Source: Candidatus Latescibacterota bacterium
GTDB lineage: Bacteria > JAAXHH01
Length of the DNA: 64,000 nucleotides
Reading direction: 5' to 3'
NCBI GenBank assembly: GCA_022823465.1
Contig: JAJEHX010000053.1
Span: forward strand, 124,001-188,000
Positions 46,654 to 58,019 of the stretch are shown in pieces. Position 1 is the stretch's first letter. Every line of letters starts with the position of its first letter. Under the pieces are notes generated by a model. That model saw nothing but the letters and a program-made list of their open reading frames with translations, made no database searches and had not been told where the DNA came from. Both the position numbers and the translations under genes were made by a program.

Positions 46654-47672
46654 ATCGGAAACCGACGAACACCCACAGATTGGAACGCGAAGTCATCGGC
46701 CGTTTCCCGGAATTGCGCGCCCTGGTCGTCGGGGACGTCATGCTCGACGTCTACGAGTTCTGCCGGACCGGGGACAGCAAGCCCATCGATTCGGAGCAGG
46801 CGGGCAAGCGGGCCTACAAGGCGCAGGAAACGATTAAGGCGCTCGGCGGCGCGGGCAACGTGGCCGCCAACCTGGCGTCCCTGGACGTGCACACGACCCT
46901 CGTGGGCGTGACGGGCGACGACGAACATTACTTCAAGGTCCGGGAACTCGCCGACGGATTATCCATACGTCTCGGCCTGATCCGGGACGCGGACCGGCCC
47001 ACTACGACCAAGGCCCGGCTTTACCTGGACGACAATTACCTGTTGCGCCGCGATACCGAAAGCACCGACCTTGTGGACGACAGGATCTCCGCGGCACTGG
47101 TGAAGGAAGTCCTTCGCGCATTGCCCGAAACCGACGTGGTTATTCTGAGCGATTATGACAAAGGGGTCTTTGCCGCAGAAAGCGCCGGACAGATCATCCG
47201 CGAATGCCGCCTCCACGAAATCCCCGTCGTGGTGGATTTCAAGCCGGGCAACCGGGAGGCTTTCGCCGGCGCGGACATCATCGCGCCCAATGCCGCCGAA
47301 GCCGCCGAACTCATCGGCGGGTTCTCGCTGGACCGTCTAGAGTCCGACTGCCGGCGCCTGCACGACGCGCTGGGCTGCCGGAACACGGTCGTCACGCTCG
47401 GGGAACACGGGCTCTGCGGTTGCGGTACGGGCGGTTTCTTCCACGTGCCGGGCCATCGCGTCGAACCAGTGGACAGGGTCGGCTGCGGTGACACGGTGCG
47501 GGCGGGACTCGGCATCGGCGCGGCGCTGGGACTGTCCCTGCGGGAGGCGGGAGAACTGGCCAACGACGCGGCGACGGTCATCGTGCAGAAACCGGCCACG
47601 TCCGTCCTGTCGCGGCAGGAGCTTCACGATTTCGTGTCCAGCAAGGAGGAGCTATGGTCCGCCTCAGTCTGA
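46650..47672 (+). CDS. PfkB-family sugar kinase, HldE kinase-domain-like
   Basis: The 340-residue ribokinase-fold protein starts VVGDVMLDVYEFCRTGDSKP. It has KALGGAGNVAANLASLDVHT, the GGAGN motif typical of RfaE/HldE domain I, RRDTESTDLVDDRISAALVK, and the catalytic end VDRVGCGDTVRAGLGIGAAL with the DxxGxGD Asp. HldE kinase phosphorylates D-glycero-beta-D-manno-heptose 7-phosphate. The nucleotidylyltransferase domain is absent. The ATG overlaps the HAD stop by 4 bases. Confidence 0.88.
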   Translation: MNRKPTNTHRLEREVIGRFPELRALVVGDVMLDVYEFCRTGDSKPIDSEQAGKRAYKAQETIKALGGAGNVAANLASLDVHTTLVGVTGDDEHYFKVRELADGLSIRLGLIRDADRPTTTKARLYLDDNYLLRRDTESTDLVDDRISAALVKEVLRALPETDVVILSDYDKGVFAAESAGQIIRECRLHEIPVVVDFKPGNREAFAGADIIAPNAAEAAELIGGFSLDRLESDCRRLHDALGCRNTVVTLGEHGLCGCGTGGFFHVPGHRVEPVDRVGCGDTVRAGLGIGAALGLSLREAGELANDAATVIVQKPATSVLSRQELHDFVSSKEELWSASV

Positions 47673-48487
47673 TCATCGCAATTGCCACACTGGTTTCGAC
47701 CGCCTGCAAGTCCGGCCCAACCGTGGACGGCACGGACACTGAAACCTACGACGCATCCATCGCCGCGATCAAGGTGACGCTTACCGAGGAAGATCAGGAG
47801 AGATTCGACGAAGTGCTGAAGGCCTTCGAATACCTCTACAGCGACAACGTCATCAGTTCGCTGAATGCGTCCGAGGCCATCCAGAACCGTATCCGAAGCC
47901 GGCTGGACGGCATGGAGGCGCGGGACGTCTTCACGGACTGGACCGACAGGGTGGACAAGGCGATCACGGCCCTCGAGGAGAAGCAGGAGAACACGGACGC
48001 CGCCATGAAGAACCTGAGGAGCGTGCGGGTCAGGGGGGTCGAATACTACGTGCAGCGGGGCCGGTCGGTTGTGAAGCTGAACATCCACAACCGGACGGAA
48101 CACACCATCTCCAAGGTGTATTTCCGCGGCACCCTCTGGAGGAAGGAGCCTCGCAAGTGGCTTCTGGAGGATGATTTCAACTACAATATCAGGTATACGG
48201 AAGGCAGGGACCTGGGGCCGGGCGACCGGGCCGAGTGGAATTTCGCCCTGCTGTCGCCGGTCTGGAAGCGGGCCCCGGAAGACGTCGACAACCTGTCCCT
48301 GAGCGTGATCGTGACTAGGATCGACGGCGCGCCCGAGCAACCCATCTACGACGCGTACACGGATCGATTCACGACCAAGGACCGGAGACGGCTGCAGCGG
48401 CTGGTTTCCCTCAAGGAATCCATCGGGACATTCGAGCCCGAGCCTGAGCCTGAAACCGCACCTGAGGAGACGTCCAGCCGGAACTGA
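47654..48487 (+). CDS. DUF6694-like lipoprotein
   Basis: ATG follows GGAGGAGCT and overlaps the kinase end by 19 bases. The signal SLIIAIATLVSTAC gives a lipobox Cys at residue 18. The beginning of the mature part (DGTDTETYDASIAAIKVTLT, EEDQERFDEVLKAFEYLY) resembles small DUF6694 lipoproteins. A longer beta-rich domain follows (VKLNIHNRTEHTISKVYFRG), then a Pro/Glu tail. I have not verified the family call. It probably acts in the periplasm. Confidence 0.7.
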   Translation: MVRLSLIIAIATLVSTACKSGPTVDGTDTETYDASIAAIKVTLTEEDQERFDEVLKAFEYLYSDNVISSLNASEAIQNRIRSRLDGMEARDVFTDWTDRVDKAITALEEKQENTDAAMKNLRSVRVRGVEYYVQRGRSVVKLNIHNRTEHTISKVYFRGTLWRKEPRKWLLEDDFNYNIRYTEGRDLGPGDRAEWNFALLSPVWKRAPEDVDNLSLSVIVTRIDGAPEQPIYDAYTDRFTTKDRRRLQRLVSLKESIGTFEPEPEPETAPEETSSRN

Positions 48488-48558: not shown

Positions 48559-49425
48559 TCATCCCTTCCCGCTACTCCCCGCGTCCGGTTCGATATACTT
48601 GTCCACCGTATCGGCGAAGATCAGGAACTGCGGATTGTTTCTGTGGGTCTGCCGAAGGGCCTGCACCGTCGTGCCTTCCCTACCCCCTTCATGAATCCCC
48701 CGGAAGTACGCCTCCATCAGGGCCGGTTCCAGGGGCTGTCGCGCGTCGTGGAAGCTGTCGGCGAAAAAGCCGAAGATCATGCCCACGATTCCGATGCCCA
48801 CCATCATCATCAGGACGCTGGCCCCCTGTCCAAGGGGGGTGACCGGGTACTTGTCGCCGTAACCAACGGTCGTGGAGGTCACCACGGCCCACCAGATGCT
48901 GTCGCCGTATACGTTGAACACGTCCGGCTGGGCGCGGCGTTCCACCTCGTAGATCACCGTCGAACTGATCATCAGGTACATGATGGTGATGAGGAAGATG
49001 GGTATAATACGGATTCGATTGGTGTACATGGACCGGGCGAACTCCGCCAGCTTGGGGCTGTACCGGAACATCTTGAGCAGCCGAAGCGTCCGGGCGCCCC
49101 GGACCAGGCCGAGCTGTTCCTGGGAAAGACCGGGGTAGAACCCGATCCAGAAGGGCAGGATGCTGATCAGGTCGATCAGGCCCAGGGAACTGACCAGGTA
49201 CTTGCCCTTCCGCGGCGCCAGGCGGATGCGCAGCGCGTACTCCAGGGTAAAGAACCCGGCGATGACGCGCTCGATCCAGATGAACCCCGTCCACGCGCCG
49301 GCGTCCAGGCTGCTGCGCGTCTGGGTGTACTGCAGCTCGATGAAGTAGAGGATCATGTTGACGGCCAGTACGTAGGGACCGAAGCGGTGTATGGCCGCAA
49401 GGAGGGAGGAAAGGATTCCCGGCAT
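48559..49425 (-). CDS. Voltage-gated-type K+ channel subunit
   Basis: ATG 49425 follows AGGAGG and gives 288 residues, better than 49470. Six membrane segments are predicted. S4 has regularly spaced basic residues (RGARTLRLLKMFRYSPKL; R109, R112, R115, K118, R121). The pore carries the K+ selectivity filter TTVGYGD (T185-D191) followed by S6 GASVLMMMVGIGIVGMIFGF. It is a Kv-type channel without a cytoplasmic RCK domain. It lies downstream of a PspA gene on the same strand, beyond a probable terminator, and such channels co-occur with PspA/DUF2491 operons. Confidence 0.92.
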   Translation of the reverse strand: MPGILSSLLAAIHRFGPYVLAVNMILYFIELQYTQTRSSLDAGAWTGFIWIERVIAGFFTLEYALRIRLAPRKGKYLVSSLGLIDLISILPFWIGFYPGLSQEQLGLVRGARTLRLLKMFRYSPKLAEFARSMYTNRIRIIPIFLITIMYLMISSTVIYEVERRAQPDVFNVYGDSIWWAVVTSTTVGYGDKYPVTPLGQGASVLMMMVGIGIVGMIFGFFADSFHDARQPLEPALMEAYFRGIHEGGREGTTVQALRQTHRNNPQFLIFADTVDKYIEPDAGSSGKG

Positions 49426-49469
49426 GGTGTGCCTCCTTGGTGAATGCGTTGGGCTTATCCTATATGACA

Positions 49470-49505
49470 AAGGCCCACCGTCCGCCTGCGCGTCGGGTGG
49501 GCCTT
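49470..49505 (-). terminator. Rho-independent terminator after pspA-like gene
   Basis: AAGGCCCACC (49470-49479) and GGTGGGCCTT (49496-49505) form a 10-bp stem around a GC-rich loop, followed by TTTGTC in the minus direction. It lies after the pspA-like stop and would separate it from the channel gene, or attenuate readthrough into it. Confidence 0.75.
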
Positions 49506-49529
49506 GAATGACAAAGACCGGCGAGTGAT

Positions 49530-50300
49530 TCAGGATTTGCGGGCGCGAAGAGCCGCCAGCCGGTCACGGGAAGAGGACGCGGGTAGCGCGGGCTTCTCGG
49601 CCGCTTCCAGGGCGGCGGCGATGTTGGGATCGTCGGTGATTTCGGTCTGCCCGAAGGCGCCGATCTTGAGTTCCGCCGCGCGGGAGGTCGTCTCCGCCTT
49701 CTCCGTCTCCTTTTCCATGGCGTTGAGGGCCGTGTCCAGCCCGCCCAGGGAACTGCTCAGACCCGCGGCCTGCCTTACGCCTTCGGCTCGTTCGAGGGCC
49801 CGTTCCTTCTTCATCCGGGCCTGCTCCATCTTGCGCTGGGCCTGCTTGAGCTGGGTCTGGGCCTGCTTCAGCTTTTCAGCGGCCGTGTCATAGGCCTGGC
49901 GTAGCTCGGCGGCGAAGGCTTCCGCCTCCTGGTCCTCCTGGCGCTCCCGTTCGATCTCGGGGTTCAGCCGCTCCAGTTCCGAGACGAGTTTTTCGAGGCT
50001 TTCCTCAAGCGCGGGACGCTGGCCTTCTTCCGCCCCGTCGAGCTGGCCTTCGAGCCGCTCGGCGGCGGCCAGGTACCGGTCGTACTGCGACAAAAGCGCC
50101 TGGGTCTCCTCATGGTCCTTCTTCACGTCCATCTCGGCCTTGCCCACGCGTTTCCCCAGCTTGTCGAGCTCCTCCTCCATGATGGAAATCTGCGCCTCGG
50201 ACGCGGTCTCCGGATCGAAGGCCACCACCGCCTGGGTGAAGGATTCCAGGGCGTTGCCGGCCTGTTTCTTGCCGACGCGGGAAAGAAATTTCCAGATCAT
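49530..50300 (-). CDS. PspA/IM30-family envelope stress protein
   Basis: The 256-residue protein is nearly all helical with a long coiled coil (about 40-190; many A/E/Q/K heptads) and starts MIWKFLSRVGKKQAGNALES, with an amphipathic first helix as in PspA/YjfJ. It would bind damaged inner membrane and may repress or sense envelope stress. It lies 18 bases after the DUF2491 gene in the same operon. A Ser/Arg tail (PASSSRDRLAALRARKS) is present. Confidence 0.9.
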   Translation of the reverse strand: MIWKFLSRVGKKQAGNALESFTQAVVAFDPETASEAQISIMEEELDKLGKRVGKAEMDVKKDHEETQALLSQYDRYLAAAERLEGQLDGAEEGQRPALEESLEKLVSELERLNPEIERERQEDQEAEAFAAELRQAYDTAAEKLKQAQTQLKQAQRKMEQARMKKERALERAEGVRQAAGLSSSLGGLDTALNAMEKETEKAETTSRAAELKIGAFGQTEITDDPNIAAALEAAEKPALPASSSRDRLAALRARKS

Positions 50301-50318
50301 GTCACTGTCCTTTCTCGT

Positions 50319-51020
50319 TTATATAACCGTTACTTCCTCGAGCATCAGGTCCACGCCCAGGTACAGTTCTATAACGCCCTCGCCCGCGCTGATCAACAGG
50401 AATTCGTCCACCCGTTCGGGATCCTCCGGGTTGTAGGGGTCGCCGCTCGCCACCCGGAAATAGGACATGGCTTGCTGGGTTTCCTCGAAGATCTGTTCGC
50501 CGTGCGGGTCCCGGATGATCCGCTCGCTGACCTGCACCGGCGGGGTCTGCCCGTCGCCGTCCATCCATTCGCGCTGGTAGGAGCGCTCTTCCTCGTCTCC
50601 GTGGAGCACTTGCGCGGAGCCTATGATACCGTCCTCGTCGTTCAGCCAGAGCTCCCAGATCTCCTCCGAATGGGGATACACGTCCCGGTCGAGCACGTAC
50701 AGGCGGCATTCCACGGGCTCCCCGTGCTCCGCCACCACCTGGAGGAAAGCCGAGGTGCCCTGGAGATAGCACCGGTAGGCCATGGCCCCTTCGCCGAGGT
50801 CGATCTTCCCGATTGCCTCGATGGCCAGGGGAAAGGATGGAAAATTGAAATGGACCAGGCCGATAAAGGTGGACAGCGCGGCGCCGTCGAGGTCGATCAG
50901 CCGATCGATGGCGACGCCCAGGGGAAGATCCTGGTCCACCCGCACAGGTTTCTTCCGGAAGAACCCCGCCGCCTCTTTCGCCTGCTTCTTTGCTACGGAA
51001 CGAATGATGTGAAAGCTCAT
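50319..51020 (-). CDS. DUF2491 (YjfK-like) protein
   Basis: ATG 51020 (GCAGGA upstream) gives 233 residues; the longer frame is inside the neighbour's 3' end. DUF2491 likeness includes LPLGVAIDRLIDLDGAALST, FIGLVHFNFPSFPLAIEAIG, and the C-terminal GEGVIELYLGVDLMLEEVTV. The function is unknown, but the family is known in operons with PspA (yjfJ) and membrane proteins. It lies between the TAXI-like gene (11 bases upstream) and pspA, so it is cotranscribed. Confidence 0.85.
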   Translation of the reverse strand: MSFHIIRSVAKKQAKEAAGFFRKKPVRVDQDLPLGVAIDRLIDLDGAALSTFIGLVHFNFPSFPLAIEAIGKIDLGEGAMAYRCYLQGTSAFLQVVAEHGEPVECRLYVLDRDVYPHSEEIWELWLNDEDGIIGSAQVLHGDEEERSYQREWMDGDGQTPPVQVSERIIRDPHGEQIFEETQQAMSYFRVASGDPYNPEDPERVDEFLLISAGEGVIELYLGVDLMLEEVTVI

Positions 51021-51031
51021 CGGGTCCTGCG

Positions 51032-52852
51032 CTACTCCTCGCCCACGATGGGCTTGATATCGTCCATGGACCGCCACAGGGCGTCTTCGAAGAGGGTCAT
51101 CGGCTTGCTGCCGTAGGTATCCACCCATCGTTTGGACAGGATCAGGACGGCGTCCACCGTCAGCGTCTCCACGCTGCTGTCGAGATAGCCGAAGAGCCAG
51201 CCTTCCTGCAGCTCGGGATAGGTCTCGTGGGGGATGGTCGCCACCTCGTAGATCGTGTTGCCGAACTGGTCCACGGCCGTGCTGAAATAGTGCTCGTCCA
51301 CGGCGACCATGCTCAACTGGCTTCCGTATTGGCTGTCGGCTTCCTTGAGCAGTTCCGAGTTGAGACCGGCGACGAACAGCATGACCGATCCGGCGTTGCC
51401 CGCCACCTGGCGCAGGGCCTCGTCGTAGCTGGCGAACCGCGTGTTGAATTCCCCGTACCTGGGATCCTGGAGGACGAAACCCTCCCAGGCCCTGTGCGTG
51501 CCGGAGCCGCGGGGTCCGACGTACACGATATGGGTGTTCGGCTCCAGGTCGGAGATGCTCGCGATGCCGCCGTCTTCGTTGACGATCAGCTGCACGTACT
51601 CCGTGTACAGGGTGGATTGCAGGCCGACCAGTTGATCCTCCGCGCCGGGGTTCTTGCGCAGGTAGGAATTCAGGATGTCGCTTTGCACGAGGATCGCGTC
51701 GACCTGGTTCTGGACCAGGTTGTTGAGGTTCTCCTCCGAACCGGCCGTCGTCTCGAGCATCACGTCGAAATCCGGCAGGTGGGACTGGAGGATCTGGCCG
51801 AAGCGGTGGTAGTTGCCGTTTTCCACGCCCGTGTTGACCGTGATACGGGGTTGATTCGGATCGGCGGTGGCCACGACTTCGGCGGCCAGGGCGATCGCAG
51901 GGGTCACGCCCGGCGGCAGATAATTGGGATCCCGCGGCGTGCCTTCCAGCGTGGCGACCTGCTTGTCAAGTTCATCCAGCTTTGCGCGCAGCTCCGCGTT
52001 GTCCTCGGCCAGGCGCTCGGCCTCGCCTCGCCACTCCTTGTAACCCGGATCATTGGCGTGGTGATGGGCCACGGCGTAATGACGGCGGCTGCTCATCATG
52101 TCCAGCATGGACCACATGAACAGGGCGTCCCACATGCCGAAACTGGGATAGGACATGAAGGCGTATCCGGGGGCGCCCCAGCCCATGCCCCCGTAGTACC
52201 GGTCCCGCCCGGCGTAGTAATTGTCGTAGGATGTACGGTTCTGCGAGCCCCGGTTATAGAGGGCGTTGTCACGGTAGCTGCTCGTGTTGGCCGCCGAATT
52301 GGACGACCGGGCGAAACCGGCCTGGCGCGACTGGTGCGTGGCCAGAGAGCTGCGGGCCGTTTCGCTCTGGACCCGCCTGCCCATGGTAGACGACCGGGCC
52401 GTGGCCCGGCCGGTGGAGGCGCCTGAGACCGCGCCGCCTGCCCGGGTCGATCGGGCCGCGGTGGCCGAAGGCTGCCGGGTCGACGTGCTGCGCGCCGCCG
52501 TGGCGGATTGCCCGGTTGAACGTGCGGGGGTCTGCCGTGTAGCGGTGGTTGAACTTCTCCGGGAGAACGGGCTGCGACGGCCGAAGGAACTGCGGCGGTT
52601 CCAAAGGGACCGCGAACTCCGGAATCCACCAAAACCGCGGCGGGCGTAGGCCTCCTCCGGACCGAACAGGTCGGTGACCTGCCGGATCGCCCGGTCCGCG
52701 TTATCTGCGCTTTCTGTGAGTGGCAGGGCATGGTCTGCCGAGCGCAGGCGGTCGGTCGTATCGGAACGCTTGCCGCCCGGGCTTATCTGTAAAAACCCGC
52801 CCGTCAGCACGAGCAGGCCGGTCATCATGACCAGTTTTACGTGTCGAGACAT
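51032..52852 (-). CDS. TAXI-family TRAP binding protein with Arg/Ser-rich N-terminal half
   Basis: The 606-residue protein starts with a hydrophobic signal (LVMMTGLLVLTGGFLQISPG). It has a low-complexity Arg/Ser/Thr/Ala-rich part (about 70-220; FGGFRSSRSLWNRRSSFGRR) and a Tyr/Met-rich stretch (YYAGRDRYYGGMGWGAPGYA). It ends with a TAXI-type solute-binding domain (about 310-600; ITVNTGVENGNYHRFGQILQ, YVQLIVNEDGGIASISDLEP, GPRGSGTHRAWEG). TAXI proteins bind glutamate-like or unknown ligands for TRAP transporters; no TRAP permease is here. It is probably a surface or periplasmic sensor in the PspA operon. Confidence 0.85.
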   Translation of the reverse strand: MSRHVKLVMMTGLLVLTGGFLQISPGGKRSDTTDRLRSADHALPLTESADNADRAIRQVTDLFGPEEAYARRGFGGFRSSRSLWNRRSSFGRRSPFSRRSSTTATRQTPARSTGQSATAARSTSTRQPSATAARSTRAGGAVSGASTGRATARSSTMGRRVQSETARSSLATHQSRQAGFARSSNSAANTSSYRDNALYNRGSQNRTSYDNYYAGRDRYYGGMGWGAPGYAFMSYPSFGMWDALFMWSMLDMMSSRRHYAVAHHHANDPGYKEWRGEAERLAEDNAELRAKLDELDKQVATLEGTPRDPNYLPPGVTPAIALAAEVVATADPNQPRITVNTGVENGNYHRFGQILQSHLPDFDVMLETTAGSEENLNNLVQNQVDAILVQSDILNSYLRKNPGAEDQLVGLQSTLYTEYVQLIVNEDGGIASISDLEPNTHIVYVGPRGSGTHRAWEGFVLQDPRYGEFNTRFASYDEALRQVAGNAGSVMLFVAGLNSELLKEADSQYGSQLSMVAVDEHYFSTAVDQFGNTIYEVATIPHETYPELQEGWLFGYLDSSVETLTVDAVLILSKRWVDTYGSKPMTLFEDALWRSMDDIKPIVGEE

Positions 52853-54548: not shown

Positions 54549-55004
54549 TCAGCGCCTGAGTCTGCCGGATCTGCCTCGCCCCATTTCCGATGATTCCGCT
54601 ACCAGTTTCTCATAGGTCTTCATCGCATCGGATGAAAGCATGCCCTTCAGGCTTTCATTGAATCTCTTCTCGCTCTCCTCCAGTTGTTCACTCAGCCAGC
54701 TCCAGTCCCCGGACTTTGTTGCCTGTTCCACCAGCGCTTCCTTCTGGGTAGAGGCTTCCTTTACCACGGCACGTAGTTGCAATACCTGTTCGTCGGTCGT
54801 ATCCATCCGTACGCTCAGCACGTGCCAGATCCGGGCTACGGGAAAGGTGCTCATCGCCCGCATTTGTTCCATCATGGCGCTGTTCTGGCCAAGTTGGCCC
54901 CGGCCGCCCATTCGGCCGGATCCTCGCCGCTGGGCATCCGCGTCGACGGCGATAAAGGCGGTCATGATCAAGCCGAGTAGGATCAGGTTAAGACGGTATT
55001 TCAT
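54549..55004 (-). CDS. Spy/CpxP-like periplasmic protein, 151 aa
   Basis: ATG 55004 follows AAAGGAG. A signal peptide (LILLGLIMTAFIAVDADA) precedes a Gly/Arg-rich linker (about 26-45) and a helical domain with SVRMDTTDEQVLQLRAVVKE and LKGMLSSDAMKTYEKLVAES. This resembles the LTXXQ helical dimers of Spy/CpxP/CnrX-type periplasmic chaperones or metal sensors. It is part of a run of such genes downstream of the ECF sigma operon. Confidence 0.7.
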   Translation of the reverse strand: MKYRLNLILLGLIMTAFIAVDADAQRRGSGRMGGRGQLGQNSAMMEQMRAMSTFPVARIWHVLSVRMDTTDEQVLQLRAVVKEASTQKEALVEQATKSGDWSWLSEQLEESEKRFNESLKGMLSSDAMKTYEKLVAESSEMGRGRSGRLRR

Positions 55005-55155
55005 TATAAGACTCCTTTTCTGGTTTCGGTCCTGATGACCGAGGGGTAACAAAACACTTCAAAAATATGCCGCGGTCGGATTCAGGTTCCTTCCGCGGCA
55101 TGTTCTCGTCTCTTAAAACAAGCGGTGAACTTTCAATTTCACGGTCGAAAGCAAC

Positions 55156-55878
55156 TCAACGCCGGTTGCGAAATTCACGGCCGCCCCGCCCGCGCCGCAT
55201 CCCGGAGTCCCGTCGCCCGTCGCGCCGGTCGCGGAACGATTCACGCAGGGTTTCCCGCTGTTCCGGGGTCAGCACATTCTTGAACTCGGCGCGGAAAACG
55301 GCGCCTCGCTCGAACACGCTACCCTGGGCCACCGATACGGCCGCGGCCAGCTCTTTCACCTTGTCGATGTCCGGGCTGATCTCATCCATAAGTTCGCGAA
55401 GCTCGACCCGCGCGAGCTTGGAGTCGGCGCGAAGCTGTATTATTTCCCGCGTGTAGGTGGAACGCAGTGTCCTGATCTTTTCCTGCTGCTCGTCCGTGAG
55501 TTCGAGTCCGGCTATCGCTCTCCGGGGCAGACGCGACCGCACATCATCCGCATCATCATCGGCGAGATCAACGGCCAGAATGTCAACGAACTCGCCGGAC
55601 GATCCAGCCGCCGCGAGTTCAGCTACTCCGTCGAGCCAGGCAGCCTCCTCGTGTCCGACGCTCTCCGCATGCCCTGCAGCTTCCGCGTGTCCAGCAGCTT
55701 CCGCGTGTCCGGGGCCTTCCGCATGGCCGGCGGCGGTGAGTGTAGCATCGTGGTGGCCACCGCCCTCATGACCGACCATGGCCATCGCGTCGAAACCCCA
55801 GGCCAGTACCGCCACACCCCAGGCCAGTACCACCACACTCAGCGCTCCGGCAAAGATTCCTGAAATGATCTTTTTCAT
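55156..55878 (-). CDS. Spy-like periplasmic protein with a His-rich repeat
   Basis: ATG 55878 follows GGGAGC. After a membrane or signal segment (SGIFAGALSVVVLAWGVAVL) come GHEGGGHHDATLTAAGHAEG and five to six GHAE-type units (HAEAAGHAEAAGHAESVGHE), likely metal-binding (zinc, copper or nickel). A helical Spy/CpxP-like domain (about 120-215; LELTDEQQEKIRTLRSTYTR, VLTPEQRETLRESFRDRRDG) and an Arg-rich tail follow. The His array and the helical LTxxQ-like motifs suggest a metal-responsive periplasmic protein of the CnrX/ZraP type. The role is inferred. Confidence 0.75.
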   Translation of the reverse strand: MKKIISGIFAGALSVVVLAWGVAVLAWGFDAMAMVGHEGGGHHDATLTAAGHAEGPGHAEAAGHAEAAGHAESVGHEEAAWLDGVAELAAAGSSGEFVDILAVDLADDDADDVRSRLPRRAIAGLELTDEQQEKIRTLRSTYTREIIQLRADSKLARVELRELMDEISPDIDKVKELAAAVSVAQGSVFERGAVFRAEFKNVLTPEQRETLRESFRDRRDGRRDSGMRRGRGGREFRNRR

Positions 55879-56206
55879 CTTGTTGCTCCCTTCTTTGTCC
55901 ACCCCTGGGTTGAAATGACCGCGATCTCCGGAGATCGTCTTCGTGGTGCTCTACAGGATTAGACAGTGGGAGACAGGATTCTATTCCAAACTTTCTTCAT
56001 GATCACATCGCGCTTCATAGTCGCCTCTCGCTTCAAGTTCGAGCCGCGCTTCAAGATCACATCACGCTCATGATCGCACCACACCCAGCCGCCCACCATC
56101 GAATCCGGTGGATAGGTGCGGTGATGGGAAGGCCCGGTGATGGAAGGCACGCTGGTGGAATGGCGCACTGGTGGACAGGTGCGTAGGTGGGAAGGTACAG
56201 CTACAG
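55879..56206. other. Intergenic region with direct repeats
   Basis: About 330 bp. On the left are GATCACATCGCGCTTCA-like units and CGCTTCAAG (about 56000-56070). On the right are GGTGATGGAAGG/GGTGGAATGG/GGTGGGAAGG units (56120-56200). No gene is convincing. It separates the Spy-like genes of the sigma operon. Confidence 0.55.
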
Positions 56207-56758
56207 CTAGTGGTCGCCCCTGCGCCCGCGCTCATCCGAACTTCCGTTATCCTGTCGGTCGGCGCGGTTGCGCTCGCCCGGCCCATTGCCCTCATCAGAC
56301 CTGTTGCGCCCGCCCGGCTCATTGCCCTCACCAGGTCTCTTGCGCCCGCCCGGCCTGTTGCGATCCCGGCGGGGCTCGTGACCTTTCTCCCGGCGGAAAT
56401 CACGCATGCTTTCGCGGCGCTCGCGTATCCGCTTGATCCGTTCGCGCTGCTCTTCGGTGAGTATGGGATCCAGGTCCCTGTGCAGTGAATCGACCAGGGC
56501 CTGCATTTCCAGGCGGTGGCGCATGTAGTTCTCCCGGAACCCGGGTTCGTGCTCGCCCACCACTTCCCTGATCCTGCGTATCTGCTCCTGGTCCGGCCCG
56601 ACCATCCTGATCCACCTCTCCACGAAACGCTCCCGGGTCATCTGGGGCGGCGGCTGCAGGCGGTCCCTGGCGAAAGCACCCAGGATCAGCGCCCCGCAGA
56701 CCATGCCGATGATCAACGTGGCCAGCAGGATGGTCGCGGTCTTCAAGTGGATGTTCAT
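56207..56758 (-). CDS. Membrane-anchored Spy/CpxP-like protein, 183 aa
   Basis: It starts MNIHLKTATILLATLIIGMV, a single N-terminal membrane helix, followed by a periplasmic helical domain with RFVERWIRMVGPDQEQIRRI, REVVGEHEPGFRENYMRHRL and ILTEEQRERIKRIRERRESM. A charged, repeated tail (about 130-183; RPGG/PGEG/PGER units) completes it. It overlaps the anti-sigma gene by 4 bases (ATGA), so it is cotranslated with it. Its helices resemble CpxP/CnrX-type metal or stress sensors that feed into a sigma/anti-sigma system. Confidence 0.75.
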   Translation of the reverse strand: MNIHLKTATILLATLIIGMVCGALILGAFARDRLQPPPQMTRERFVERWIRMVGPDQEQIRRIREVVGEHEPGFRENYMRHRLEMQALVDSLHRDLDPILTEEQRERIKRIRERRESMRDFRREKGHEPRRDRNRPGGRKRPGEGNEPGGRNRSDEGNGPGERNRADRQDNGSSDERGRRGDH

Positions 56759-57213
56759 AGTGCGCCCTCCGTTTCCAGTGCCATCCGCGCGTCGTAGAGG
56801 TCTTCAGGATACAGTTCCCCGTTCAGGCCGAAGGACGCCGTGAGGGAGACGCTTCCCGTCGTGGTCAGATTGTAGGTCAACAGCAGGACCGCGGCGATGG
56901 ACGCGGCCACCGCCATCCTGCGGAACATGATAGACAGAGCGTTCTCGAAGTCCGGCGTTGCATCGTCGGCGGAAACCGGTGCCGCCTCAGACGCGGATTC
57001 CCGATCGAGTCGATCCATGACCCTGCTGGTGAACCCCGGCTTGAAGGAAAGTGGTTCCTGACTCTCCATCTGGCTGCGAAGCCGGACCAGCCGTTCGCGT
57101 TCTTCCCGCAGGGCGGGATCTTGCCGGAGCGCCGCGTCCAGGCGGCTCCGCTCTTCGGCCGTCAAGGTCGTATCCAGCGACCGGTAAAGCAAATCCAGGT
57201 CAGATCGTTTCAT
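56755..57213 (-). CDS. Anti-sigma factor, membrane anchored
   Basis: ATG 57213 follows GGGAG. The cytoplasmic N-terminus (about 1-95) is helical (SDLDLLYRSLDTTLTAEERS, LDAALRQDPALREERERLVR), of the zinc-less anti-sigma type, without an HxxxCxxC motif. One membrane segment (FRRMAVAASIAAVLLLTYNL) precedes a short periplasmic tail. It should hold the upstream sigma factor until a signal arrives from the periplasm. It overlaps sigma by 14 bases and the next gene by 4. Confidence 0.8.
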   Translation of the reverse strand: MKRSDLDLLYRSLDTTLTAEERSRLDAALRQDPALREERERLVRLRSQMESQEPLSFKPGFTSRVMDRLDRESASEAAPVSADDATPDFENALSIMFRRMAVAASIAAVLLLTYNLTTTGSVSLTASFGLNGELYPEDLYDARMALETEGAL

Positions 57214-57787
57214 GGACAAGCTCCCTATGGGATATGAGTATACGCTTCAGTTTCTCTTGGGATCTCCTCAGGCGGGACAGGACCGTCCCGACGGGCAGGC
57301 CCAGGATCTCGGCCGTTTCTTTTGTGGAGTAACCTTCCATCAACCTGAGTACGATGACGGAACGGAATTCAGGTTTCAGTTTGTTCAGCGCTCCTTGTAT
57401 CCGGTCGACCGTGTCGTCGTAGTCGGCGCTGGCCCGCGGATCCTCGAATTCCGGTTCAGGCGCGTCGTTTTCTTTACCAACCGGGGTAAACGGAACGAAG
57501 ATCGAACGGCGCCGGCGTTTCTTGATCTCATTCAGCGACAGGTTGATGGCGATGCGGGTGAGGTAGGTGCCGACCGCGGCCTGCCCGCGGAACCGCCGAA
57601 GGCCGCGGTAGAACCGGATGAAGGTCTCCTGCCCCACGTCTTCCGCTTCCGGGGTGTTCCCGAGCATGCGGATGACGACAGACGCCACCCGGCCTTCGTA
57701 CCGTACCACCAGTTCCCGGAAGGCCTCCTCGCCACCTTCGCGGGCGGCGTCAACCAGCGCTTCGTCCGTCAAGGTATCTTGCCTCAT
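57200..57787 (-). CDS. ECF-type RNA polymerase sigma factor
   Basis: ATG 57787 (GAGGGAAG upstream) gives 195 residues; the longer frame adds nothing family-like. Region 2 is LVVRYEGRVASVVIRMLGNT, PEAEDVGQETFIRFYRGLRR. Region 4 is LKPEFRSVIVLRLMEGYSTK, ETAEILGLPVGTVLSRLRRS. It is a RpoE-like sigma factor that would drive the envelope-stress or metal-response genes, probably including its own operon. No other sigma-specific domain is present. Confidence 0.93.
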   Translation of the reverse strand: MRQDTLTDEALVDAAREGGEEAFRELVVRYEGRVASVVIRMLGNTPEAEDVGQETFIRFYRGLRRFRGQAAVGTYLTRIAINLSLNEIKKRRRRSIFVPFTPVGKENDAPEPEFEDPRASADYDDTVDRIQGALNKLKPEFRSVIVLRLMEGYSTKETAEILGLPVGTVLSRLRRSQEKLKRILISHRELVHETI

Positions 57788-57842
57788 CCCGCTTCCCTCG
57801 CATAGCCGGTGATCGCTCCGGGCAGATGCCGCTGCCTGTAGT

Positions 57843-57872
57843 TTAGACCACGCCCGGGCCGTTTTTATTCCC
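57843..57872 (-). promoter_or_regulatory. Candidate ECF (RpoE-like) promoter for its own operon
   Basis: On the minus strand GGGAAT (57872-57867) and TCTAA (57847-57843) are spaced by 19 bases, close to the GGAAC-N18-TCTAA pattern of RpoE-type promoters, 56 bases upstream of the sigma ATG. Inferred only. Confidence 0.4.
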
Positions 57873-58019
57873 ATAAAATCACATTGCCCTTATTTCGACA
57901 GAAGACAATAGATCGCGGAGAAACCCGACGCTGGAAATGTATTGACTTTAACGGACTGTTGTATCACAGTTTGGGAACAGTTGCCCGTTCGCGGAATACA
58001 CCCTGGCAAAAGTGGCATA

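Follow-up and report, generated by a model that had tools for sequence, protein, structure and literature searches.

Four minus-strand genes of a Candidatus Latescibacterota bacterium may constitute the ligand-sensing branch of a PspA-like envelope-maintenance system, a tentative reading to which we give slightly less than an even chance. They lie in a 64,000-nucleotide stretch of DNA (assembly GCA_022823465.1, contig JAJEHX010000053.1, positions 124,001 to 188,000), hereafter the window, and encode in order a fusion of a conserved domain, here called NDOM, with a TAXI-type solute-binding domain, a DUF2491 protein, a PspA-like coiled-coil protein and a Kv-type K+ channel (Table 1). A preliminary description of the window had placed the four genes at 48559-52852, and these are borne out with almost no correction. 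Central to the proposal is NDOM, which in several phyla appears to connect the space outside the inner membrane with DUF2491 and a PspA-like protein and which some lineages have provided with a solute-binding head.

NDOM lies in the part of the TAXI protein that the preliminary description called its Arg/Ser-rich half. An Arg/Ser-rich stretch is present there, but this half is not mere filler and contains NDOM as a conserved exported domain ahead of TAXI. No Pfam or NCBIfam model matches NDOM above its cut-offs. The region ahead of TAXI matches 12 Azospirillum and 2 Bosea plasmids in tblastn searches (best E = 2e-30), and where these matches are annotated they fall within DUF2491-family proteins. 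The NDOM core is 49-58% identical to the Azospirillum copies. The DUF2491 gene of Bosea ANAM02 (L032:6906-8492) is probably annotated too short, and the open frame upstream of it encodes a signal-like segment, a Ser-rich stretch and NDOM.

With NDOM as its only query and one genome per species, a genome scan gave 87 confirmed loci, the best 80 of which represent 79 distinct loci (L088 and L089 are one contig); neighbouring families were assigned by local profile searches. DUF2491 is encoded in 78 of the 79 distinct loci, which span several phyla, and the exception (L041) ends at a contig end. This count is informative because DUF2491 was absent from the query. A PspA-like gene is found in 72/79. 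NDOM is fused to DUF2491 in 50 loci, all of which also have DUF350 and a PspA-like gene, and stands alone beside DUF2491 in 15, with a PspA-like gene in 14 of these. The remaining form, NDOM-TAXI, occurs in 14/79 loci from Latescibacterota, Rhodospirillales and Thiosymbion. Had TAXI and DUF2491 not been neighbours in other genomes, the preliminary description would have been refuted by its own account; DUF2491 comes directly after NDOM-TAXI in 13 of the 14 NDOM-TAXI loci, and the fourteenth (L041) is cut by the contig end. DUF2491, a PspA-like gene and a Kv channel occur together in 7/14 NDOM-TAXI loci, and the single Thiosymbion locus has DUF2491 and a PspA-like gene. Its DUF2491 is missed by Pfam at E 0.01 and scores 5.9e-23 against a local profile built without it. 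In the five Rhodospirillales loci, DUF2491 has no PspA-like gene beside it; all five genomes have such a gene at another site, where it is more divergent (213-220 bits, compared with 317-340 bits for linked genes) and in one case has an internal stop. A CobW-type GTPase gene is situated directly 5' of NDOM-TAXI in four Rhodospirillales loci (L061, L064, L071 and L078; cobW 147.1 bits in L078), and the fifth (L058) has just 210 base pairs (bp) of upstream sequence.

Within Latescibacterota, DUF2491 is present in 14 of 16 genomes, and the same four-gene order is found in 14/14 regions, which are the window and one region from each of the 13 other DUF2491 genomes; three of these (L023, L025 and L027) end at contig ends inside the channel or TAXI gene. 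Neither the PspA-like protein nor NDOM was found in the two genomes without DUF2491 (G013 and G015). NDOM was also not found in G014, whose contig stops inside TAXI. Close relatives in the genome scan are mostly titled as metagenome-assembled genomes of Candidatus Latescibacterota or Gemmatimonadetes.

The arrangement of hydrophobic segments suggests how NDOM is placed in the envelope. Stand-alone NDOM proteins start with an N-terminal hydrophobic segment (15/15) and a Ser/Gly-rich stretch (in the sequences inspected), and their NDOM is followed by a membrane helix and then a short, basic tail; in the fused form DUF2491 comes after the membrane helix. A helix C-terminal of NDOM is found in 47/50 fused proteins, 14/15 stand-alone proteins and 0/14 TAXI forms. 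The N-terminal hydrophobic segment is above threshold in 34/48 fused proteins and 11/14 TAXI forms. Net charge rises past the helix in 47/47 fused and 12/14 stand-alone proteins. Because charge is higher after the helix, the positive-inside rule predicts that NDOM is outside the inner membrane and DUF2491 inside. A shared amphipathic N-terminal anchor of the stand-alone DUF2491 and PspA-like proteins was also considered (18 and 16 N-termini, five controls) and is not used as evidence. An amphipathic N-terminus beats most shuffles in the DUF2491 proteins of Latescibacterota, Nitrospirota and Sumerlaeota and is weak or absent in other DUF2491 proteins and most PspA-like proteins.

The NDOM-TAXI protein scores 46.3 bits against PF16868 (NMT1_3), above the cut-off of 27, and its profile matches solved TAXI structures (PDB 8u79 and 1us4) with E about 1e-20. 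Its match to TIGR02122 (TRAP_TAXI; E = 1.9e-18, 66.4 bits) is under the cut-off of 84.35. In the genome, the TAXI-type family PF16868 is matched once, and no fused TRAP permease of the TAXI type (TIGR02123) scores above cut-off, although two weak, partial TRAP_fused matches below threshold, one of them at a contig edge, mean that a missing piece is possible. The suggestion of the preliminary description that this TAXI protein has no TRAP permease agrees with these searches, and because there is one TAXI protein and no TAXI-type permease above cut-off, an orphan, non-transport role is reasonable. The protein could instead be an uptake receptor for an unlinked or divergent permease and be encoded next to DUF2491 and the PspA-like gene only by chance; the two sub-threshold matches speak for this. 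TAXI proteins are described as TRAP subunits paired with fused DctQM permeases in the available text of PMC5812351. However, NDOM fusion and DUF2491 adjacency recur in three lineages, and the module TAXIs are split from the other TAXIs that the profile finds in the same genomes. Together with the lack of a permease above cut-off, these observations make an uptake role improbable.

In another reading, NDOM-TAXI is a structural envelope scaffold in which TAXI retains its fold yet acts only as a stiff spacer or as a contact to the cell wall, and a PspA-like coat is held at the membrane's inner face without ligand sensing. The low-complexity stretches, heptad-like stretch and conserved hydrophobic segment of NDOM proteins are compatible with such a scaffold, and 65/79 loci manage without TAXI. 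A mere spacer should drift, however, and the motifs GxxxGxY, GS, QxD, YxE and SG are invariant in eight aligned TAXI domains, while the window domain is 41-43% identical to those of Rhodospirillales. We consider a scaffold rather unlikely and continue to favor a ligand-sensing TAXI domain. A further match of the TAXI domain (window 51035-51862; E = 1.6e-32) is phrog_6856, a family from a phage library that has no assigned function.

In a TAXI tree of 26 rows, the NDOM-TAXIs of Latescibacterota and of Rhodospirillales form sister groups (92/90); the profile had missed 10 of the 31 TAXI loci offered, and the tree omits duplicates and near copies. The NDOM-TAXIs, Thiosymbion and an unfused plasmid TAXI (L036) split from the remaining TAXIs, including those from the same genomes (100/99), with long branches that leave the placement of the Thiosymbion and plasmid rows unsure. 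In a tree of NDOM and DUF2491 (49 rows; near copies and cut loci left out), the TAXI forms fall into two separate parts, which corresponds to at least two changes. Because the NDOM tree has two such parts whereas the TAXI domains group together, it appears that either TAXI joined NDOM repeatedly, the fused protein was transferred, or the fusion is old and was repeatedly lost.

The DUF2491 protein matches PF10679 with 67.8 bits (cut-off 25), and its predicted model is confident and beta-rich (predicted local distance difference test, pLDDT, 90.2; predicted TM-score, pTM, 0.84). Seven residues (P116, G134, Y148, R150, Y187, E206 and G222 in window numbering) are conserved in 30/30 aligned sequences. 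Neither a sequence search of the PDB nor Foldseek, with a threshold of E 0.001, gave a match, but this is no proof of a new fold.

The coiled-coil protein, which the preliminary description took to be a PspA, leans toward PspA and Vipp1 by predicted fold and by a helix-1 pattern, but it fails the PspA_IM30 profile. Its predicted model is a long helical hairpin (mean pLDDT 71.7, pTM 0.51). Vipp1 holds the first three ranks, and seven of the nine best rows, in a Foldseek search of the PDB (E 0.039-0.28). VIA-align superimposes the model at 1.5 A over 130 residues of VIPP1 (7o3x) and at 2.6 A over 131 residues of E. coli PspA (4whe). A profile-profile comparison of 79 members gives 42% against five PspA and three YjfJ-type sequences jointly, and reversed controls give 0.2-0.6% (0.2% for the joint set). 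The pattern DP-x7-[ILVM]-x2-M[ED]-x2-[LM] in helix 1 occurs in 70/81 PspA-like open reading frames (ORFs) and in 0/1,822 other ORFs of at least 200 residues from the same loci. With [DE]P it fits 4/5 canonical PspAs and is shared with E. coli PspA. Membership in PspA by sequence is rejected on the absent PspA_IM30 match and the weak profile comparison, and a likeness at the level of fold is kept. The protein is likely, though not proven, to be a distant PspA relative. Weak matches of this protein to tape-measure-like coiled coils were obtained in PHROGs.

A number of results weigh against the envelope-sensing proposal. PspA_IM30 (PF04012) matches neither the window protein nor any of 16 members (0/16) and has no match in the whole genome; a known Pseudomonas amygdali PspA, scanned likewise, scores 142.1 bits. 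The Foldseek E values all stay above 0.001, and the TM-scores of the Vipp1 rows are 0.27-0.44 (query) with a root mean square deviation of 11-16 A over the whole alignment. The VIA Z scores of 8.9-10.2 are tied by unrelated coiled coils (CorA, Z 10.8), and a designed protein scores as well. The profile comparison is weak, with 5.6% against PspA alone and 0.7% against YjfJ alone, and 16 members compared with three YjfJ-type sequences give 2%. The helix-1 pattern was picked after viewing both sets and the 81 ORFs are related, so it is a lead. Beyond this protein, the best VIA Z of DUF2491 is 3.8 (PagP), with no solved-fold match that hints at a function. Many of the 79 NDOM loci are near relatives, from Azospirillum above all, and hence are not independent. 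In one locus (L084), a pseudouridine synthase gene comes after DUF2491 and a PspA-like gene is lacking. The TAXI form lacks a membrane helix after NDOM, which leaves its route to cytoplasmic DUF2491 unexplained. Finally, G015, one of the two module-less genomes, is only 83% complete.

The failed PspA_IM30 match, the weak profile score and the generic coiled-coil matches would all be expected if the coiled-coil protein were an unrelated regulator and the module carried out envelope signaling of another kind. A PAS-histidine kinase gene after DUF2491 in 4/5 Rhodospirillales NDOM-TAXI loci also suits this explanation. It is nevertheless unlikely, as Vipp1 tops an unrestricted fold search and the helix-1 pattern is common with E. 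coli PspA. In addition, a canonical PspA match is missing in 7/10 module-bearing genomes checked, and in both module-less genomes as well, so the place of PspA may be vacant.

The channel gene has matches to Ion_trans (99.8 bits) and Ion_trans_2 (54.6 bits), reads TTVGYGD and includes an S4-like RGARTLRLLKMFR stretch; no further Pfam domain is found at E 0.1. The 104-bp gap ahead of it contains a hairpin of -25.7 kcal/mol (z -3.85), and 0/200 shuffles are equally stable. The hairpin has a short T run and is not listed by a simple terminator scan; simple scans for sigma-70 promoters and standard terminators gave nothing convincing. It is present in the best spacer fold of 11/14 sequences (the window and 13 relatives), and in the other three (L016, L020 and L022) an alternative pairing of the same 3' arm wins. 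The letters of the stem are different in L025 and partly so in L028. This element is likely a terminator or attenuator, and with such a hairpin ahead of it the channel gene probably forms its own transcription unit. Of the earlier suggestion that a channel behind a terminator is joined to the module and serves ion release, the hairpin stands, but the joining and the ion release are not supported in the form proposed. Among the scan loci, a Kv channel is beside NDOM only in the Latescibacterota version.

Starting from the gene order, the domain exchange, the topology signals and the lack of a permease above cut-off, we infer the following course of sensing and signaling for the ligand-sensing branch. 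The exported NDOM protein would sit outside the inner membrane, cytoplasmic DUF2491 would either be joined to it by a membrane helix or come from a neighboring gene, and the PspA/Vipp1-like cytoplasmic coiled-coil protein would probably assemble on the inner membrane. A TAXI domain on NDOM replaces the membrane helix in the window's lineage. Binding of a ligand, probably a carboxylate, by TAXI could then set the state of NDOM, which otherwise may read the envelope itself. This state would be relayed to DUF2491, directly in fused relatives and via some membrane contact in the window's lineage; the NDOM-DUF2491 link is physical in 50 relatives because they are fused, and it would have to be non-covalent here. 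DUF2491 may in turn tune assembly of the PspA-like polymer, which would seal or reshape the inner membrane. More speculatively, the K+ channel of Latescibacterota perhaps takes the membrane-partner place of DUF350 in Alphaproteobacteria. An envelope role fits because, in the available parts of the two reports, heat-evolved E. coli shows strongly raised yjfIJKL expression (PMC12492005) and DUF2491, PspA, DUF350 and a K+ channel are assigned to one operon class (Ravi et al. 2024, PMC11237479).

PspA-type systems guard membranes in many bacteria, and to our knowledge it is largely open how outside conditions reach PspA beyond the PspBC route of E. coli. In its most ambitious form, which we regard as doubtful, the proposal would make NDOM the missing extracytoplasmic receptor of PspA/ESCRT-III-like membrane repair: a modular arm with a TAXI head, a helix or DUF2491, by which an outside small molecule or the envelope state directly controls an inside remodeling polymer, with DUF2491 as an adaptor whose fold is unseen in solved structures. 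More generally, NDOM, DUF2491 and the PspA-like proteins, the last of which are annotated as hypothetical, are three uncharacterised families that gain a shared context, and the predicted topology of NDOM and DUF2491 is testable in culturable Azospirillum.

Successive genes are separated by 11, 18 and 104 bp, in the order NDOM-TAXI, DUF2491, PspA-like and channel. The start of DUF2491 is likelier at 51020 than at 51128, the position in a mechanical ORF list, and the channel likelier starts at ATG 49425, which has AAGGAGG upstream, than at TTG 49470.

Table 1. Features of the NDOM-TAXI locus, in window positions
Feature	Position	Strand	Length or residues	Basis and remarks
NDOM-TAXI gene	51032..52852	-	606 amino acids	Profile matches; hydrophobic N-terminus, Arg/Ser-rich stretch, NDOM, TAXI
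N-terminal hydrophobic segment	52784..52840	-	residues 5-23	Likely signal peptide or anchor
Arg/Ser-rich stretch	52373..52642	-	about residues 71-160	Ser/Gly-rich counterpart in relatives
NDOM core	51881..52201	-	residues 218-324	WDALFMWxMLD, HHH...DPGY..WR.EAERLA, heptad-like stretch, PRDPxYLPP
TAXI-type solute-binding domain	51035..51877	-	residues 326-606	Own subfamily; profiles, tree
DUF2491 gene	50319..51020	-	233 amino acids	PF10679 match; no evident signal sequence; confident beta-rich model
PspA-like coiled-coil gene	49530..50300	-	256 amino acids	Predicted long helical hairpin; fails PspA_IM30
Terminator-like hairpin	49470..49505	-		AAGGCCCACC...GGTGGGCCTT; between PspA-like gene and channel
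Kv-type K+ channel gene	48559..49425	-	288 amino acids	Ion_trans match; filter TVGYGD

Two sets of neighbors adjoin the module across the genus. A lipoprotein-like gene (window 47654-48487, plus strand; DUF6694 24.6 bits, cut-off 24.3) faces the channel gene, and in two regions from other genera (L025 and L028) extra genes separate these two while the four-gene set is intact. On the other side (window 54549-57874, minus strand) are genes for an ECF sigma factor, a likely anti-sigma factor, which is called by position and has no Pfam match, and an LTXXQ/Metal_resist protein. This set could be an envelope or metal stress regulon that may control neighboring genes.

The neighborhood of DUF2491, PspA and a K+ channel is already known; the open literature searched contains no account of NDOM, of its exchange of TAXI, helix and DUF2491, or of the divergent PspA-like family. 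Closest among described systems is the third of the CesT/Tir-PspA operon classes in Ravi et al., with E. coli yjfIJKLMC as its type, for which the available text (PMC11237479) likewise places DUF2491 next to a PspA-type gene and includes a K+ channel; NDOM and TAXI are unnamed in that part of the account. The E. coli record itself has the order yjfI-J-K-L-M-C and no channel. Unlike that class, the window lacks a relative of YjfI, DUF1190 or YjfC, and its PspA-like protein fails PspA_IM30. E. coli queries for YjfI (DUF2170) and DUF1190 match only records of E. coli, Pseudomonas and Halomonas; neither the window nor any of the 80 scan loci has a matching ORF, in a search restricted to these ORFs and records rather than genome-wide. 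The ATP-grasp ligase family GSP_synth has 0 matches in the genome. DUF350 has 0 matches in the window's genome and one among 15 genomes of the phylum (1/15), a short frame with an internal stop. The YjfC-like gene of a Halomonas plasmid (L035:9922-10918) is split over several frames and is a pseudogene or a sequencing error. In its accessible portions, PMC12492005 proposes that YjfK (DUF2491) is an outer-membrane porin, which the membrane predictors used there did not confirm, and the predicted NDOM/DUF2491 topology argues against that idea.

The individual proteins can be compared with better-known families. The TAXI domain shares its fold, by profile, with TAXI-family TRAP binding proteins, but it scores under the TIGR02122 cut-off, is fused to NDOM, belongs to a separate clade and has no permease above cut-off. 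The coiled-coil protein resembles PspA/Vipp1 (PspA_IM30, ESCRT-III-like) in its predicted helical hairpin and helix-1 pattern and differs from them in having no PF04012 match and a weak profile-profile score. Among whole clusters, those of Alphaproteobacteria (Azospirillum, Bosea, Roseomonas and Belnapia), which plasmid records label as DUF2491 family, DUF350 and hypothetical protein, also have NDOM, DUF2491 and a PspA-like gene together. In these, however, NDOM is fused to DUF2491 with a helix between them in 47/50, DUF350 is present in 50/50, and no TAXI fusion or Kv channel was found. Three-gene clusters in Nitrospirota, Desulfovibrionaceae, Desulfobacteraceae and Wolfebacteria combine NDOM, DUF2491 and a PspA-like protein as the window does, but they have no TAXI, and the stand-alone NDOM protein instead brings its own helix and basic tail (14/15).

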